Assembly (NCBI GenBank): GCA_017512425.1
Contig: JAFWGI010000014.1
Span: 62,001-126,000 of the forward strand
Reading direction: 5' to 3'
Length of the DNA stretch: 64,000 nucleotides
From: Hyphomicrobium sp.
Lineage (GTDB): Bacteria > Pseudomonadota > Alphaproteobacteria > Rhizobiales > Hyphomicrobiaceae
Positions within the stretch are counted from its first letter, which is position 1. Each line of letters begins with the position of its first letter. This document shows, one piece after another, positions 15,501 to 64,000 of this stretch. The notes under the pieces were generated by a model that had not been told where the DNA came from, did no database searches, and saw nothing but the letters and a program-made list of their open reading frames with translations. The translations under genes and the position numbers were made by a program.

Positions 15501-16349
15501 ATGGATGTAAGCTTGGCACGAACGTTTCTGATTGTTGCCGAGACCGGCAGTTTCATCGACGCCGGCCGCAAGATGAACATCACGCAATCGACCGTGTCCG
15601 CGCGCATAAAAGGCCTAGAAGACCTTTTAGGACGGCCTCTTTTTACACGTTCGAAATTTGGCGCCGAGCTCACCGGCGCCGGTGAACTCTTCCAAAAGCA
15701 CGCGCTCGCGATGGTCCGAGTCTGGCAGCAAGCGCAGCTTCAAGTGTCGCTCGCCGACCAACATCCCGACCACATTTCTGTCGGCGCGCCTCTCAGTTTG
15801 TGGAACGGATTTCTGTTGAAATGGGTGTCGGGACTACGCACAGACACCCCCGGAGTGGCCGTTTCGGGCTCTCAAGGGCTCGCGCAAAGCCTCATGCAGC
15901 GACTCATCGAGGGCACTTTAGACATCGCGATTCTCTATCGCCCTTCGGTTCCGCCGGGTCTGACGATGGAGCATCTGTTCGACGAGGAGTTCGTTCTGGT
16001 GTCGTCGGCCAAGCCCGGCGGACGCCGCGGCGCCAACGATTATGCGCTGATCGACTGGGGTCAGGACTTCCTCCAGGACCATGCGGCGGCCTTTCCCGAG
16101 CTCTCCAACCCGGCGCTGAACCTCGATCTTGGGCCCATGAGCCTCGAATACGTCATCGCCAACCACTGTTCGGCCTATTTCCCGAGCCGCATGGTCCGCC
16201 ATCACGTGGCGCGTGGACGCCTGCGCCAGCCGAAACGGGCGCGGAAGTTCATCTATCCGGTCTACATGGTCTATCCTGAGACGCGCAACGAAGAGAGCTT
16301 CGAGCCTCTTCTTGAGCGCATGCGCACCGAAGCGGCACGCTTCAATTAA
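15501..16349 (+). CDS. LysR family transcriptional regulator
   Basis: A 282-aa regulator. The N-terminal winged HTH (residues 1-60) has LARTFLIVAETGSFIDAGRK and the recognition helix ITQSTVSARIKGLEDLLG. The effector domain follows from about residue 88 (DHISVGAPLSLW). The ligand is unknown. GGAGAG lies just before the ATG. It is divergent from the 29-residue basic peptide gene. The last codons of the gene are the first unit of a short tandem repeat. Confidence 0.9.
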   Translation: MDVSLARTFLIVAETGSFIDAGRKMNITQSTVSARIKGLEDLLGRPLFTRSKFGAELTGAGELFQKHALAMVRVWQQAQLQVSLADQHPDHISVGAPLSLWNGFLLKWVSGLRTDTPGVAVSGSQGLAQSLMQRLIEGTLDIAILYRPSVPPGLTMEHLFDEEFVLVSSAKPGGRRGANDYALIDWGQDFLQDHAAAFPELSNPALNLDLGPMSLEYVIANHCSAYFPSRMVRHHVARGRLRQPKRARKFIYPVYMVYPETRNEESFEPLLERMRTEAARFN

Positions 16350-16399
16350 AAAGTGCGGCACGCTTCAATTAAAAGGTTGCGGCACGCTTCAACTGAAAA
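16332..16399 (+). repeat. Tandem repeat of the lysR 3' end (period 23-24 nt)
   Basis: The sequence GCGGCACGCTTCAATTAAAA, which encodes the last codons and stop of the LysR gene, recurs exactly once 23 nt later. It recurs a third time 24 nt further on with two substitutions (AACTGA for AATTAA). A degenerate fourth copy, GCGGCGCGCTTCCAA, follows at about 16402. Confidence 0.85.
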
Positions 16400-16439
16400 A
16401 CGGCGGCGCGCTTCCAAGAACGAAGCGCCTATAAAGAAA

Positions 16440-22474: not shown

Positions 22475-24241
22475 ATGAGCATTTCCGTTTTTGAAAAAAT
22501 ACGGCAGCGCGTCACAGGCGCCGGCAGTGCGGATGGACCGCGCCCGGACGTGGCGCCGGCGGCACCGCGCGTACCGCTGAAAGTTCGCGCTTCAAAAATG
22601 TCGGCGGCGCTGTCGCACGTCACCGTCATCGGCCTCGGTGCCATTGCGCTTCACACGCGCCCGGATTTGGTGACCGCGCTCATCGCGCCGTCTGGCCCAA
22701 AAGCGTTGCCGCTCGAAACCGCACGTCCTGCGACGGCGCTCGCAACCGCCAAGCGCGTTCCGCTGCAGAGTGTGCAGGTCATCCGATCTCCGGTCGAAGC
22801 CCTAACGAACGATCCCGCGACTGAACCGGCACAGCAGGTGCAGGCTCCTTTGCAGGCTATGGTCGCACCGGTCAAACGCGTGCTGCCGCCAACAGCGATC
22901 GCGGCAACAACAGCGGCACCGCACGAAATTGAGTCCGCGACTGCACCGACCGAAAAACAATTGAAGGCGCTGCCGCTGACCGTCGCGCGCGCCGTCGTCT
23001 TGCCGGAAGCCCGCCTTGTTCTCGCGGCTTCGGCACCGATCGCCGTACTGCCCGCATTGCCGATGTCGGAGCGTGGGCGTGACGTCATTCGCGACACGCA
23101 CCGCATGCGCACCGCCCGCGTGCGCGAACGCGAGGTGACCGCTCTTGCCGCCGCGGCAACGGCGCCACCCGCGACCGTGACACCCGCCAATAAATCCGTC
23201 GCCGCCGCAGTCGCGCCGCCGCTCGTCAAATGGGCGGCGATGACGCCGGAGCAACGCGCCGAAGCCAACACTCCTGTCAAAAAATCGACGCCGTATACGG
23301 TCGCCGTCACGTGGACGGAAGACCAGATCGCAGCCGCGCGCGCCGAGTGCGGCAAGCTGCTCAAATCGGCAGATATCGTGACCAGTAACGCCGAGCCGGT
23401 CAAGGAAGGCGCGTGCGGCGCGCCTGCGCCCGTCAACGTCAGCAGCGTCGGCAATCCGAAAGTTCAGCTTCATCCATCATCGATGATGACGTGCCCGATG
23501 GCCGCCGCGCTCGACAAATGGATGACGAGTAAAGTGCAACCCGCCGCAACCGCGTCGTTTGGATCACCTGTCGCGCGCTTGATTTCCGCATCGTCGTACT
23601 CGTGCCGCAACCGCTACGGCAGCGCCAACACGCCGCTCAGCGAGCACGCCCTCGTCAACGCTCTCGATCTCGCGGGATTCGTTCTCGCGGACGGCCGCAC
23701 AATCCGCGTTAAGCAGGACTGGGGTCCGGTTGCGCGCGACGCTGCGAAGAAGCCGATCGCGAACAATGACATTCCGATACCGGACAACAAAGACGCAACC
23801 GTCAAGGTCGCGATCGCTGTCGCTGCACCGGGCAAGACTGGCCTCTCCATGCTCGGCGGCGCGTCGCTTGCGAAGAAGACGAGCTTGAAAACCGAAACGA
23901 ACGACAAGGCAAAGCCGGCCACGTCGTCGGATGATACCGGCAAGGCCGGCAAATCGAAGACGGCGAAGTCGGCAGCGCCGGCCGCGGCCGGTGAAGCGGC
24001 CGACGACAAAAAAGCGGATGGCAAGAAAGGTCGGTCAGCGACACCGGCTTCAGCGACGCCAGCCAAAGACGCGGCGCCTGTCAAAGATATGACGGTGGCA
24101 CGCCGCGAATTTCTGCATCGCGTGCATGAAGGCGCGTGCGATGTGTTCGGAACGGTGCTCGGCCCCGAAGCCAACGACGCCCACCGCGATCACTTTCATC
24201 TCGACATGAAAGCCCGGCGGCACAGGGCGTATTGTCAGTAG
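22475..24241 (+). CDS. Extensin-like C-terminal domain protein with long Ala/Pro-rich regions
   Basis: A 588-aa envelope protein. It has a basic N terminus and one weak hydrophobic segment (about residues 45-62). A low-complexity Ala/Pro/Thr region runs to about 260. The extensin-like domain follows (PF06904 type), with cysteines in AARAECGKLL, EGACGAPAPV, MTCPMAAAL and SSYSCRNRYG, plus LSEHALVNALDLAGFVLADGR. A Lys/Ala-rich insert of about 110 residues then interrupts the domain before its ending HEGACDVFGTVLGPEANDAH and the HxHxD-like HFHLD. The zinc-peptidase-like HxH and SEHxxxNAxD pattern recalls D-Ala-D-Ala/LAS peptidases, so peptidoglycan hydrolysis is possible. The insert is unusual. 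Confidence 0.85.
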   Translation: MSISVFEKIRQRVTGAGSADGPRPDVAPAAPRVPLKVRASKMSAALSHVTVIGLGAIALHTRPDLVTALIAPSGPKALPLETARPATALATAKRVPLQSVQVIRSPVEALTNDPATEPAQQVQAPLQAMVAPVKRVLPPTAIAATTAAPHEIESATAPTEKQLKALPLTVARAVVLPEARLVLAASAPIAVLPALPMSERGRDVIRDTHRMRTARVREREVTALAAAATAPPATVTPANKSVAAAVAPPLVKWAAMTPEQRAEANTPVKKSTPYTVAVTWTEDQIAAARAECGKLLKSADIVTSNAEPVKEGACGAPAPVNVSSVGNPKVQLHPSSMMTCPMAAALDKWMTSKVQPAATASFGSPVARLISASSYSCRNRYGSANTPLSEHALVNALDLAGFVLADGRTIRVKQDWGPVARDAAKKPIANNDIPIPDNKDATVKVAIAVAAPGKTGLSMLGGASLAKKTSLKTETNDKAKPATSSDDTGKAGKSKTAKSAAPAAAGEAADDKKADGKKGRSATPASATPAKDAAPVKDMTVARREFLHRVHEGACDVFGTVLGPEANDAHRDHFHLDMKARRHRAYCQ

Positions 24242-24278
24242 CTGTCGAAAGCGGCCTGCCGCAATGTCCAATCGCGTC

Positions 24279-24366
24279 GTCATCCCGGCGCAAGCCGGGA
24301 TCCATCCAAGCCGCTACAGGGTCCGATCCTTAAACCTGGGTGGATCCCCGCCTCCGCGGGGATGAC
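24279..24366. repeat. Paired palindromic repeat (BIME-like)
   Basis: Two hairpins in inverted orientation. The left is GTCATCCCGGCGCAAGCCGGG followed by ATCCA shortened here. The right is TGGATCCCCGCC-TCC-GCGGGGATGAC. The outer ends GTCATCCC and GGGGATGAC are complementary over 36 nt of unique sequence. This is the widespread alphaproteobacterial extragenic palindrome type and it sits exactly between the extensin-like gene and a second copy of its 3' end. Confidence 0.8.
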
Positions 24367-24378
24367 GAAATGTGCGGG

Positions 24379-24450
24379 GCCAACGACGACCACCGCGATC
24401 ACTTCCACCTCGACATGAAAGCCCGCCGCCACCGCGCGTACTGCCAGTAG
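24379..24450 (+). pseudogene. Displaced second 3' end of an extensin-like gene
   Basis: A 72-nt stretch encoding 23 residues and stop, identical to the last 24 codons of the preceding gene except for one amino acid (Asp for Ala). Of the nine nucleotide differences, all but that one are synonymous (for example CGG to CGC, TAT to TAC). The copy has no start and no upstream domain. The pattern means both copies diverged while under coding selection, so this is a remnant of a paralogue or of an earlier gene end. Confidence 0.75.
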
Positions 24451-24465
24451 TTCGAACGACTGATC

Positions 24466-24960
24466 CTAGGCTTCGGCCTGCCGGCTTCTCGTCATGTCGT
24501 TCAGAATATCCAAAAATTGCCTGCAACGCGCAGAATATCTGAACACACTAACGATAAGCTTATAGGCGATGGGCGATCGGCACATCATCGAAACCACTGC
24601 GCAGACACACATGTTTCCGAACGCCGAATAGATAGCTGGCGGCAATCTCTCAATTTGTTTTAGCAAATCTGGAAACGCCGACGCGTTTTGCTGAGAATTT
24701 GATAGTTGCTGCCAAAAATATTGGCCGATAATACCCCACAACAAAAACGGACTACGAACCGAACGCTCTAGGTTCAGAGCAACGTTTCTGACGCGCGGAG
24801 GTGTCGATGCTGACCCAACGACGATAGCCAATTGCTCATAAAACCCTTGCTGCGCGCGCCGCGCCGCTCGGATGTTCTTGGCTTGCCATCTAATCGCCTG
24901 AGGAAGGAACCAGATTGCTGCGCCGCCCACGATTGCCAAGACTGTCCAAATGAGTTGCAT
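24466..24960 (-). CDS. Hypothetical membrane protein
   Basis: A 164-aa protein with an N-terminal membrane helix (LIWTVLAIVGGAAIWFLP), a basic stretch (RWQAKNIRAARRAQQ), and further hydrophobic segments around SPFLLWGIIGQYFW and FGNMCVCAVVSMMC. It has no recognised family. Base composition is lower in GC and codon use is more AT-rich than in neighbouring genes, suggesting acquired DNA. The start MQLIWT is uncertain (weak AGGGA upstream). It overlaps the next upstream gene by 71 nt. Confidence 0.55.
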   Translation of the reverse strand: MQLIWTVLAIVGGAAIWFLPQAIRWQAKNIRAARRAQQGFYEQLAIVVGSASTPPRVRNVALNLERSVRSPFLLWGIIGQYFWQQLSNSQQNASAFPDLLKQIERLPPAIYSAFGNMCVCAVVSMMCRSPIAYKLIVSVFRYSARCRQFLDILNDMTRSRQAEA

Positions 24961-25222
24961 CGTTGGAATGTCCCTGGAGAGCTGAAGAACCGTTTGTCTC
25001 GCTGCTCGTTTGGTTTTTGATCTGACTGCGCAGGCGAGCATGTTCTTGCTTATCGCGCCGACGCTGAGTCCAATAAAAAAGTATCTCGCGCGCTAATTGA
25101 GGCGACTTATAGGCCGCGATACTGCCCCAAATCAGCGGCAGGACGAGCCACGGATGGCTTGAAAAGACTTCAATCGCGACATCCTGTAATGCCGCAACAA
25201 TTGAAGTCCACGGGATTTCCAT
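24890..25222 (-). CDS. Hypothetical small membrane protein
   Basis: A 110-aa protein with a membrane segment (HPWLVLPLIWGSIAAY) after an amphipathic N terminus. A charged cytosolic stretch (YWTQRRRDKQEHARLRSQIKNQ) and a polar Ser/Asn-rich tail follow. GGGGGG precedes the ATG. Its 3' end overlaps the downstream hypothetical gene by 71 nt in another frame, so one of the two starts may be wrong. The local composition is more AT-rich than in the flanking core genes. Confidence 0.5.
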   Translation of the reverse strand: MEIPWTSIVAALQDVAIEVFSSHPWLVLPLIWGSIAAYKSPQLAREILFYWTQRRRDKQEHARLRSQIKNQTSSETNGSSALQGHSNDATHLDSLGNRGRRSNLVPSSGD

Positions 25223-25555
25223 TGGTACCCCCCGCGTTTGCGTTTGCCCGATGCGTTGTCGGACTTTTATCGGCACGCATGAGAGCGTCCCTCCGCCGAT
25301 AAACCCAAGTCCGCACCAGTCGATTCATTCGAATCACCTCAAGGATTGAACAGCGCGAGCTTGAACACAACTGCGTGGAAGCAGTTGTGCCCAGGTTTGT
25401 ATTTGGCGCTGTAATCGAATGTAGAGGGAGCGCTCTTCGGCCGAAGGCCGTGAGCGCGACTGCGTGACGGGCTGAGCCTGCCCCCGCGGAGGTCGCCCGC
25501 GCAATGTCCGCGCCTTCCGGCCGGCTCCGCGAAGCGGAGTCGGAAGGCGCAAACA
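25223..25555. other. Intergenic region downstream of pccB with nested hairpins
   Basis: No supported gene. It contains a nested hairpin GCGCTC-TTC-GGCC-GAA-GGCC-GT-GAGCGC (25430-25457) and, near pccB, copy A of the 41-nt nested hairpin family. Confidence 0.5.
25510..25550 (-). repeat. 41-nt nested hairpin, copy A (3' of pccB)
   Basis: In minus-strand orientation: outer arm GCGCCTTCCG, A, inner hairpin CTCCGC-TTC-GCGGAG, CCGGC, outer arm CGGAAGGCGC. It lies 5 nt beyond the pccB stop codon. It shares the exact 10-1-15-5-10 layout with four other copies in the window. Confidence 0.85.
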
Positions 25556-27088
25556 TCAGAGCGGAATGTTATCGTGCTTTTTCCACGGCGTTTCGACCTG
25601 CTTGTTGCGCAGCATGTTGAGCGCGCGGCAAAGCCGCTTGCGGGTGGCCGACGGCGTAATGACTTCATCGATGTAGCCGCGCTCAGCCGCAACAAACGGA
25701 TTGGCGAAGCGCTTCTGGTATTCGTCGATGCGCGCCTTGATCTTGTCGGCATCGCCCAGTTCCGAGCGATAGAGAATTTCAGCTGCGCCCTTCGCGCCCA
25801 TGACGGCGATTTCTGCCGTCGGCCAGGCGTAGTTCACGTCGCCGCCGATGTGCTTCGAGCTCATGACGTCGTACGCGCCGCCGTAAGCCTTGCGCGTAAT
25901 GACGGTCACCTTCGGCACTGTCGCCTCGGAGTAGGCGAACAACAACTTGGCGCCGTGCTTGATCAGGCCACCGTATTCCTGCGCGGTGCCCGGCAGGAAG
26001 CCCGGGACGTCGACGAAGGTCACGATCGGGATGTCGAAGCAATCGCAGAAGCGGACGAAGCGCGCGCCCTTGCGCGACGCGTCGCTGTCGAGCACGCCGG
26101 CGAGCATCAGCGGCTGGTTGGCGACGATGCCGACCGTGCGGCCTTCCATGCGCGCGAAACCGGTGATGATGTTCTTGGCGTAGGCTTCCTGGATTTCGAA
26201 GAAGTCAGCCTCGTCGACGACCTTCAGGATCATTTCCTTCATGTCGTACGGCTTGTTGGGATTATCCGGGATCAGCGTATCGAGCGAAGTGTCGATGCGG
26301 TCGGCGCTGTCGAGCGTGTCGATTTCCGGCACGCCGGTTTCGTTGCAGAGCGGCAGGAAATCCATCAGGCGCCGCATTTGCAGCAGGCCCTGCACGTCAT
26401 TCTCATACGAACCGTCCGCCACCGACGACTTCGACGTATGCACCTTGGCGCCGCCGAGTTCTTCGGCCGTGACGTTTTCGTTCGTCACGGTTTTAACGAC
26501 GTCCGGACCGGTCACGAACATATAGCTCGTGTCCTTCACCATGAAGATGAAGTCGGTCATCGCCGGCGAGTAAACGTCGCCGCCCGCGCACGGACCCATG
26601 ATGAACGAAATCTGCGGGATGACACCCGACGCCGCGACGTTGCGCGCGAAGACTTCGCCATAGCCGCCGAGCGCGTCGACGCCTTCCTGGATGCGGGCGC
26701 CGCCAGCATCGAACAGGCCGATGATCGGCGCGCGGTTACGCAGCGCCAGATCCTGAATCTTGGTGATCTTGCGGGCGTGGCTCTGCGACAGCGATCCGCC
26801 CATCACGGTGAAGTCCTTGGCGAACACATACACGACGCGGCCGTTGACCGTGCCCCAGCCCGTCACAACGCCGTCGCCCGGCACCTTGGTCTTTTCCATG
26901 CCGAATTCGGTGCAGCGATGCTCGACGTACATGTCGAACTCTTCAAACGAGTTCTCGTCGAGCAGCAGCTCGATGCGTTCGCGCGCCGTCAGCTTGCCCT
27001 TGGCGTGCTGACTATCGATGCGGGCCTGGCCGCCGCCGAGACGGGCATTGTCGCGGCGCTTCTCAAGCTCGTCGATAATATCTTTCAT
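25556..27088 (-). CDS. pccB: Propionyl-CoA carboxylase beta subunit (carboxyltransferase)
   Basis: A 510-aa carboxyltransferase that moves CO2 from carboxybiotin to the acyl-CoA. Two crotonase-like halves are seen. The N half has [14 protein letters not shown] and [14 protein letters not shown] followed by [14 protein letters not shown]. The C half has [18 protein letters not shown] and the oxyanion-type [10 protein letters not shown]. The length and sequence fit PccB. It is bracketed by two of the nested hairpins, A after its stop and B in its leader. pccA lies about 7 kb away on the same strand. The start [13 protein letters not shown] is the family N terminus. Confidence 0.93.
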
Positions 27089-27109
27089 GGGCGGAGAACT
27101 CTTTTCTGG

Positions 27110-27150
27110 GCACCTTGCGACTCCCCTCCGGGGAGCCGGCCGCAAGGTGC
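27110..27150 (+). repeat. 41-nt nested hairpin, copy B (5' leader of pccB)
   Basis: Outer arm GCACCTTGCG, A, inner hairpin CTCCCC-TCC-GGGGAG, CCGGC, outer arm CGCAAGGTGC. It begins 21 nt upstream of the pccB start codon, on the opposite orientation to copy A. Confidence 0.85.
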
Positions 27151-27239
27151 AGGTGGAGGCTGAAAAGGCTCCTTAGCATGGCCTATGCAGCACGCAAACG
27201 CCCTCCTAAGGATGGGCAAAGCCGATAACCATTTGCCGC

Positions 27240-58812: not shown

Positions 58813-58879
58813 AGTCTCAAGTCCTTTTGGAGTGTTTGTTTAGTGATGGGAGGTTCTTCGGCCTCGCCTTTTTTCATTT

Positions 58880-58920
58880 GCGTTTGGCGACTCTCGTACC
58901 GAGAGCCGGCCGCCAAACGC
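58880..58920 (+). repeat. 41-nt nested hairpin, copy C (rpoA-rplQ spacer)
   Basis: Outer arm GCGTTTGGCG, A, inner hairpin CTCTCG-TAC-CGAGAG, CCGGC, outer arm CGCCAAACGC. It is followed by a T-run of 7. It lies 67 nt upstream of the rplQ start. Confidence 0.88.
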
Positions 58921-58936
58921 GGTAGTTTTTTTATTT

Positions 58937-58977
58937 GCGCTCGGCGACTCCGCTTCGCGGAGCCGGCCGCCGAGCGC
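58937..58977 (+). repeat. 41-nt nested hairpin, copy D (rpoA-rplQ spacer)
   Basis: Outer arm GCGCTCGGCG, A, inner hairpin CTCCGC-TTC-GCGGAG, CCGGC, outer arm CGCCGAGCGC. It ends 11 nt from the rpoA stop codon and is 16 nt from copy C in the same orientation. Confidence 0.88.
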
Positions 58978-58988
58978 GGTCGTCAAAC

Positions 58989-63938: not shown

Positions 63939-63953
63939 GTGACTCTCCTTATT

Positions 63954-63994
63954 GCGTCCGGCGACTCCCCTGCGGGGAGCCGGCCGCCGGACGC
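63954..63994 (+). repeat. 41-nt nested hairpin, copy E (upstream of rplO)
   Basis: Outer arm GCGTCCGGCG, A, inner hairpin CTCCCC-TGC-GGGGAG, CCGGC, outer arm CGCCGGACGC. It begins 15 nt upstream of the rplO start codon, so in the mRNA it sits just before the ribosome-binding site. Confidence 0.88.
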
Positions 63995-64000
63995 GGATTG

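Follow-up and report, generated by a model that had tools for sequence, protein, structure and literature searches.

A displaced second 3' end behind an extensin-like gene of Hyphomicrobium as a probable relic of one-sided recombination between diverged alleles

In Hyphomicrobium sp., the end of an extensin-like gene is repeated downstream of its own stop codon, and this second gene end (copy 2) is probably a dead stub that goes back to one-sided (homology-facilitated illegitimate) recombination, in which two diverged alleles of one locus took part. The gene end is duplicated, both copies bear the mark of coding constraint, and no donor gene was found in this genome. The window, that is, the whole stretch of DNA that was analysed, comprises 64 kb of a 136.6-kb contig, in an assembly of 3.45 Mb (G000) with 16 contigs and 99.5% completeness; the features discussed are located in Table 1.

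Table 1. Features of the extensin-like gene and its two 3' ends (window coordinates)
Feature	Position	Strand	Remarks
Extensin-like gene, 590 aa	22469..24241	+	Pfam PF06904 Extensin-like_C, E 1.1e-52; ends in copy 1
Copy 1, functional 3' end (ANDAHRDHFHLDMKARRHRAYCQ, stop TAG)	24170..24241	+	
3' flank of copy 1, 35 nt	24242..24276	.	One 10-mer of note (CGGCCTGCCG) in common with the copy 2 flank
REP-type palindrome doublet, REPIN-like, outer tag CGTCAT...ATGACG	24277..24368	.	Arms 24277-24308 and 24337-24368
Joint between doublet and copy 2, 10 nt	24369..24378	.	
Copy 2, displaced, non-functional second 3' end (ANDDHRDHFHLDMKARRHRAYCQ, stop TAG)	24379..24450	+	
AT-richer flank of copy 2 with unclassified minus-strand ORFs	24451..25300	.	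G+C 0.52 vs 0.65 in the gene

The two copies align without gaps over 72 nt at 87.5% identity and with a spacing of 209 nt (E 5e-22), which bears out the second 3' end reported in the initial annotation of this DNA, whose "last 24 codons" are 23 sense codons and the stop. The sole amino-acid difference lies at codon 4 (GCC/GAC, A/D), and the remaining differences fall in 7 synonymous codons (8 nt, as AGG/CGC counts twice) among the 23 sense codons, again as first described. When copy 2 was given 9 random substitutions, no more than one amino-acid change resulted in a fraction of 2e-5 of 100,000 simulations. With a chance of about 2e-5 under unconstrained decay, the copies therefore diverged while both were coding, in agreement with the constraint originally proposed for copy 2, and the mainly synonymous divergence excludes that copy 2 has been decaying for long as non-coding DNA. 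Copy 2 has a C-ending codon at 7 of 7 synonymous sites and matches the codon usage of the window more closely than does any of the 24-codon stretches scanned in the gene (-0.67 per codon vs -0.78 for the best of these). Past the stops the two 3' flanks are almost unalignable, with little in common but the one 10-mer, and the distance between the copies is 137 nt, most of it REP doublet. Read-through from the gene into copy 2 was considered and rejected as out of frame, the spacing of 209 nt not being divisible by 3. Copy 2 is probably a scar and not a working device, and nothing observed points to a function. A frame of 26 codons that starts at an ATG upstream of copy 2 runs through it (window 24370-24450), probably by chance.

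The palindrome pair that was noted in the gap is real, its arms being 84% complementary and folding better than 200 of 200 shuffles (z -4.2). The doublet is dispersed, with 24 matches in this genome (both strands counted) and many elsewhere in the genus, and it consists of CGTC-tagged palindromic units in inverted pairs, as is characteristic of CGTC-tagged REPs and REPINs. The likeness to these families (PMC3733652; see also PMC3116915) extends to the CGTCAT outer tags, the inverted arms and the dispersed copies, and CGTC repeats are stated to predominate in alphaproteobacteria (PMC3733652). A conserved outer flank as part of the doublet element was rejected, with a weak A/T preference at most.

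A search for repeats in the flanks of 14 doublet sites of this genome returned gene-end repeats at the extensin-like gene and at nuoG, and the same search at 80 doublet sites in relatives returned one case of the same kind, cysI of G003 (1/80); no gene-end duplication was recognised at 12/14 sites here and at 79/80 in relatives. Controls with swapped flanks gave 0/240 pairs of at least 33 bits and 3/240 of at least 30 bits, and 1/200 pairs of at least 30 bits for the first 40 of the relatives' sites. Weaker flank repeats occur at doublet sites L013 and L031 of this genome, the latter with a 25-nt repeat at 1272-1296 and 1700-1724 around a doublet cluster. The other pairs at the relatives' 80 sites were those at L162 (another dispersed repeat family, 500-1500) and L188 (one weak pair), and L104, among five of the relatives' doublet sites, has short repeats of 16-18 nt.

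The clearest case of such a structure is that of cysI in G003, a one-contig genome, where two alleles that exist separately in other genomes follow one another, with stubs of the two flanking genes at the joint (L174 / L253). In G001, G020, G018 and G015 a shared flank with REP units (type I) lies alone between the cysI stop and the convergent tauE gene (assigned by Pfam), and in G013 a different, repeat-bearing flank (type II) lies alone directly after the cysI stop and is followed by tauE. In G003 the order is cysI, the type I flank with two doublets, a dead stub of the tauE end (26 nt, 92% to G020), a dead stub of the cysI end (23 nt, two synonymous changes), the type II flank and tauE. The second flank and tauE of G003 align with G013 over 816 nt (77%), unbroken at the stub.

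Another case was met at the 5' end of nuoG in the same genome as the extensin-like gene, where a segment has been stacked onto an allele that a sister genome also carries. On contig C6 (L010 1193-2165) the start of nuoG recurs at 1476 and 1635, ahead of the real start at 2140, and the copies, which are nearly identical, surround a REP doublet and a DUF559 gene that is itself flanked by CCTCTCCCC/GGGGAGAGG palindromes. The gap between nuoF and nuoG, measurable in 25 of 30 loci, is 12-19 nt in 12/25 and 79-976 nt in others. G021, whose NuoG piece is 96% identical, has the DUF559 insert and, immediately behind nuoF, a dead start of nuoG. With this allele G000 is collinear (69% over 597 nt) beginning at its second-last nuoG start, or about the nuoF stop. 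Before the G021-like part, G000 has a stacked segment with ORF92 that was found in none of the other 29 loci.

At sspB (PF04386) of G018, the last 69 nt recur 640 nt downstream at 91% identity (L314), with 3 synonymous and 2 other codon changes, and it is the stub that carries the codons of another species. The displaced end equals the real end of G003 over 49/49 nt, 6 of them past the stop, and that of G004 over 42/42, and the real end of G018 shares codons with the genomes closest to it (CGG with G013; CTC with both G013 and G015), so that here the displaced end looks foreign. At argC, whose ends were readable in 7/22 genomes, it is the older type that the displaced end appears to represent. 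G001 and G020 have a changed gene end and a palindrome-bearing insert, followed by a displaced end of the type found in G003 and G018, and from the displaced end onward G001 matches G003 at 95% over 750 nt, in the position of the real end of G003 (L345 / L375). Because 17 nt are exactly repeated around the insert of G001, an insertion with target duplication is equally likely at argC.

No REP half was found between the sspB copies of G018, and palindromes do lie at or near the joint at the extensin-like gene, nuoG, cysI and argC; the palindrome is thus a frequent neighbour of such scars and is not required. The initial annotation had suggested an exchange of the gene end by recombination at the repeat, and of this the recombination is supported in kind by cysI, nuoF/nuoG and sspB, where displaced ends correspond to alleles of relatives, while the placement at the repeat stands in part, given that no palindrome was found at sspB.

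The frequency of such gene ends exceeded chance in two surveys, in which 7/1686 gene 3' ends in total had a stop-anchored second match within 1.2 kb, three of them of this kind, as opposed to 1/5058 swapped pairs. The first covered 1.264 Mb (the window, two 200-kb stretches of G000 and 400 kb each of G003 and G018), of which three stretches (the window, C6 of G000 and G003) had been chosen for a known case and G018 for its REP density. It returned 4/1026 3' ends (extensin, cysI, sspB of G018 and a 23-24-nt tandem repeat) vs 1/3078 swapped, and 2/1028 5' ends (nuoG and a small gene of G003) vs 1/3084 swapped. The second, over 800 kb of G001 and G015, returned 3/660 3' ends vs 0/1980 swapped, namely two paralogue-like pairs and an antisense match that led to argC, and 0/664 5' ends vs 1/1992 swapped. 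The new cases from the survey were sspB and argC, the latter recognised by eye via the antisense match, its pair lying one base outside the anchoring rule on its own strand. The two gene pairs of G015 (69-73% identity) look like tandem paralogues and were set aside, and the tandem repeat that ends the ORF at 15501-16349 is not of this kind; it consists of four 23-24-nt units across the stop codon of that ORF (window 16332-16425). The small gene of G003 (C1, about 1524309-1524743; L285) has a second copy of its first 65 nt, at 91% identity, some 720 nt upstream, possibly a partial duplicate.

By analogy with cysI, sspB and nuoF-nuoG, we infer that the structure behind the extensin-like gene arose in the same manner. 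One allele would have ended in copy 1 with its 35-nt flank and the REP doublet, and the other in copy 2 with a flank of its own. DNA from a related lineage would have found homology on one side, either within the gene or in the flank downstream, and the other side would have been joined illegitimately within the last 69 coding nucleotides, which would place the two forms of the gene end, each with its intergenic region, in tandem. Such a product would have been tolerated because the gene kept one full reading frame. A larger merodiploid that lost its middle would be an alternative route; we infer a single event at the junction rather than such a later deletion. The joint is unrelated to the gene sequence upstream of the last 24 codons of copy 1. 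A diverged donor allele is seen at cysI and sspB; at the extensin-like gene the copies diverged under coding constraint, but no donor was found among the compared loci.

The drop in G+C lies past copy 2, where the minus-strand ORFs gave no Pfam or NCBIfam match and one of them was found in 1/22 genomes of the genus, its own. The tail ARRHRAYCQ, common to both copies, was found in no other gene among the loci scanned, and therefore the copies look like alleles of one gene and not like distant paralogues. To any compared locus from elsewhere, the longest exact match of copy 2 is 24 nt (L080). None of the compared relatives' loci has this extensin gene in this setting, and for this reason neither allele was seen alone; the neighbouring carboxylase gene has other neighbours in 10/10 relatives' loci, which is why the locus is not comparable with a parent. 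The initial annotation had held that absence of the copy 2 codons from every other extensin-like gene of the clade would refute its reading, and among the loci compared they were indeed in no other such gene, an absence with little power because no compared locus has this gene in this setting. A viral donor was rejected, with 13 pattern matches in viral contigs of which none is a relative and with a 27-nt piece of copy 2 that had no exact counterpart, as was a plasmid donor, with 24 plasmid records bearing extensin-like genes, all below 60% identity.

The loss of a tandem paralogue would lead to an identical final structure and to identical synonymous divergence: a gene A, the REP doublet and a gene B would have stood in a row, and a deletion beginning immediately to the right of the doublet would have spared the last 24 codons of B. 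Closely spaced extensin-like genes do occur in a genome from another family (G059, with two of them about 3 kb apart); in this genus, however, no two adjacent ones were seen among the matches listed. This genome has four extensin-like genes, and the other three are 31-39% identical; the end of copy 2 is in none of those whose ends were read (the C4 gene left out), no orphan 5' fragment of a second extensin gene was seen in the genome, and no full-length paralogue with the copy 2 codons was found in the genome or in the compared relatives' loci. Furthermore, the stubs at cysI and sspB come from the allele of another lineage and not from a paralogue. The lost paralogue, which had been among the initial suggestions, is thus not supported and is considered unlikely. 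Still less probable is an inserting element, either the REP doublet or a module bearing one, that entered the gene end with a long target duplication, the two ends being identical at first. The exact 17-nt repeat around the palindrome-bearing insert at argC and the near identity of the nuoG start copies agree with such an event, but a dead copy would decay regardless of codons, which the 9 differences with 1 amino-acid change at the extensin-like gene argue against, and nearly all doublet sites, here and in relatives, have no recognised gene-end duplication.

Site-specific elements such as phages that integrate in icd bring a replacement gene end and leave a displaced 3' end with synonymous changes, and an element of this type could once have lain between the copies and been almost wholly deleted. 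It is very improbable here, since the two downstream ORFs scanned had no Pfam match and thus offer no integrase, no viral contig was found that encodes this C-terminus, and the short interval between the copies is mostly REP doublet. An assembly artefact is just as improbable: the assembly is a draft in 16 contigs, but the feature is internal to a 136.6-kb contig, with about 50 kb between it and the closer contig end, and the same structure is present in the one-contig genome of G003 at cysI. One-sided recombination between diverged alleles remains the preferred reading of copy 2.

The mechanism itself is already known. Homology-facilitated illegitimate recombination has been proposed for displaced 3' ends in T6SS clusters of Vibrio cholerae, where one side is homologous and one illegitimate, as proposed here, and the 3' end of the resident gene is displaced downstream and persists as a stub (PMC5361080). 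These clusters gain new toxin/immunity modules, whereas at the extensin-like gene both ends encode nearly the same peptide and the gain is only an intergenic region with a repeat. The same mechanism has been proposed for dimorphic segments of E. coli (PMC2884548), although in such small variable segments or dimorphic loci one segment replaces the other, and here both stand in tandem with stubs at the joint. In merodiploids from transformation of Streptococcus pneumoniae, two alleles of one region are likewise in tandem after a genetic cross, but the duplications there span about 100-900 kb with long repeats at their borders (PMC3784515), as opposed to the doubling of gene ends and an intergenic region only. 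In the literature searched, no description was found of tandem stacking with gene-end stubs at core or housekeeping genes, which is no proof of absence.

It is tentatively proposed that intergenic regions of diverged lineages may have been stacked in tandem repeatedly at ordinary core genes of this genus, with a short dead stub of a gene end left behind every time, so that stubs would form a readable single-genome record of one-sided recombination, with REP doublets as hot spots or passengers. If this is true, displaced gene ends with mainly synonymous differences would mark the joining of foreign DNA by one-sided homology, and single genomes could yield the frequency with which intergenic regions and repeats spread at core genes, outside toxin clusters.

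A second family of intergenic hairpins (GGCGACTC...GAGCCGGCCGCC) was also seen in the window, at 25507-25561, 27099-27155, 58869-58983 and 63943-63999. It sits at both ends of the carboxylase gene and is in tandem at 58869.
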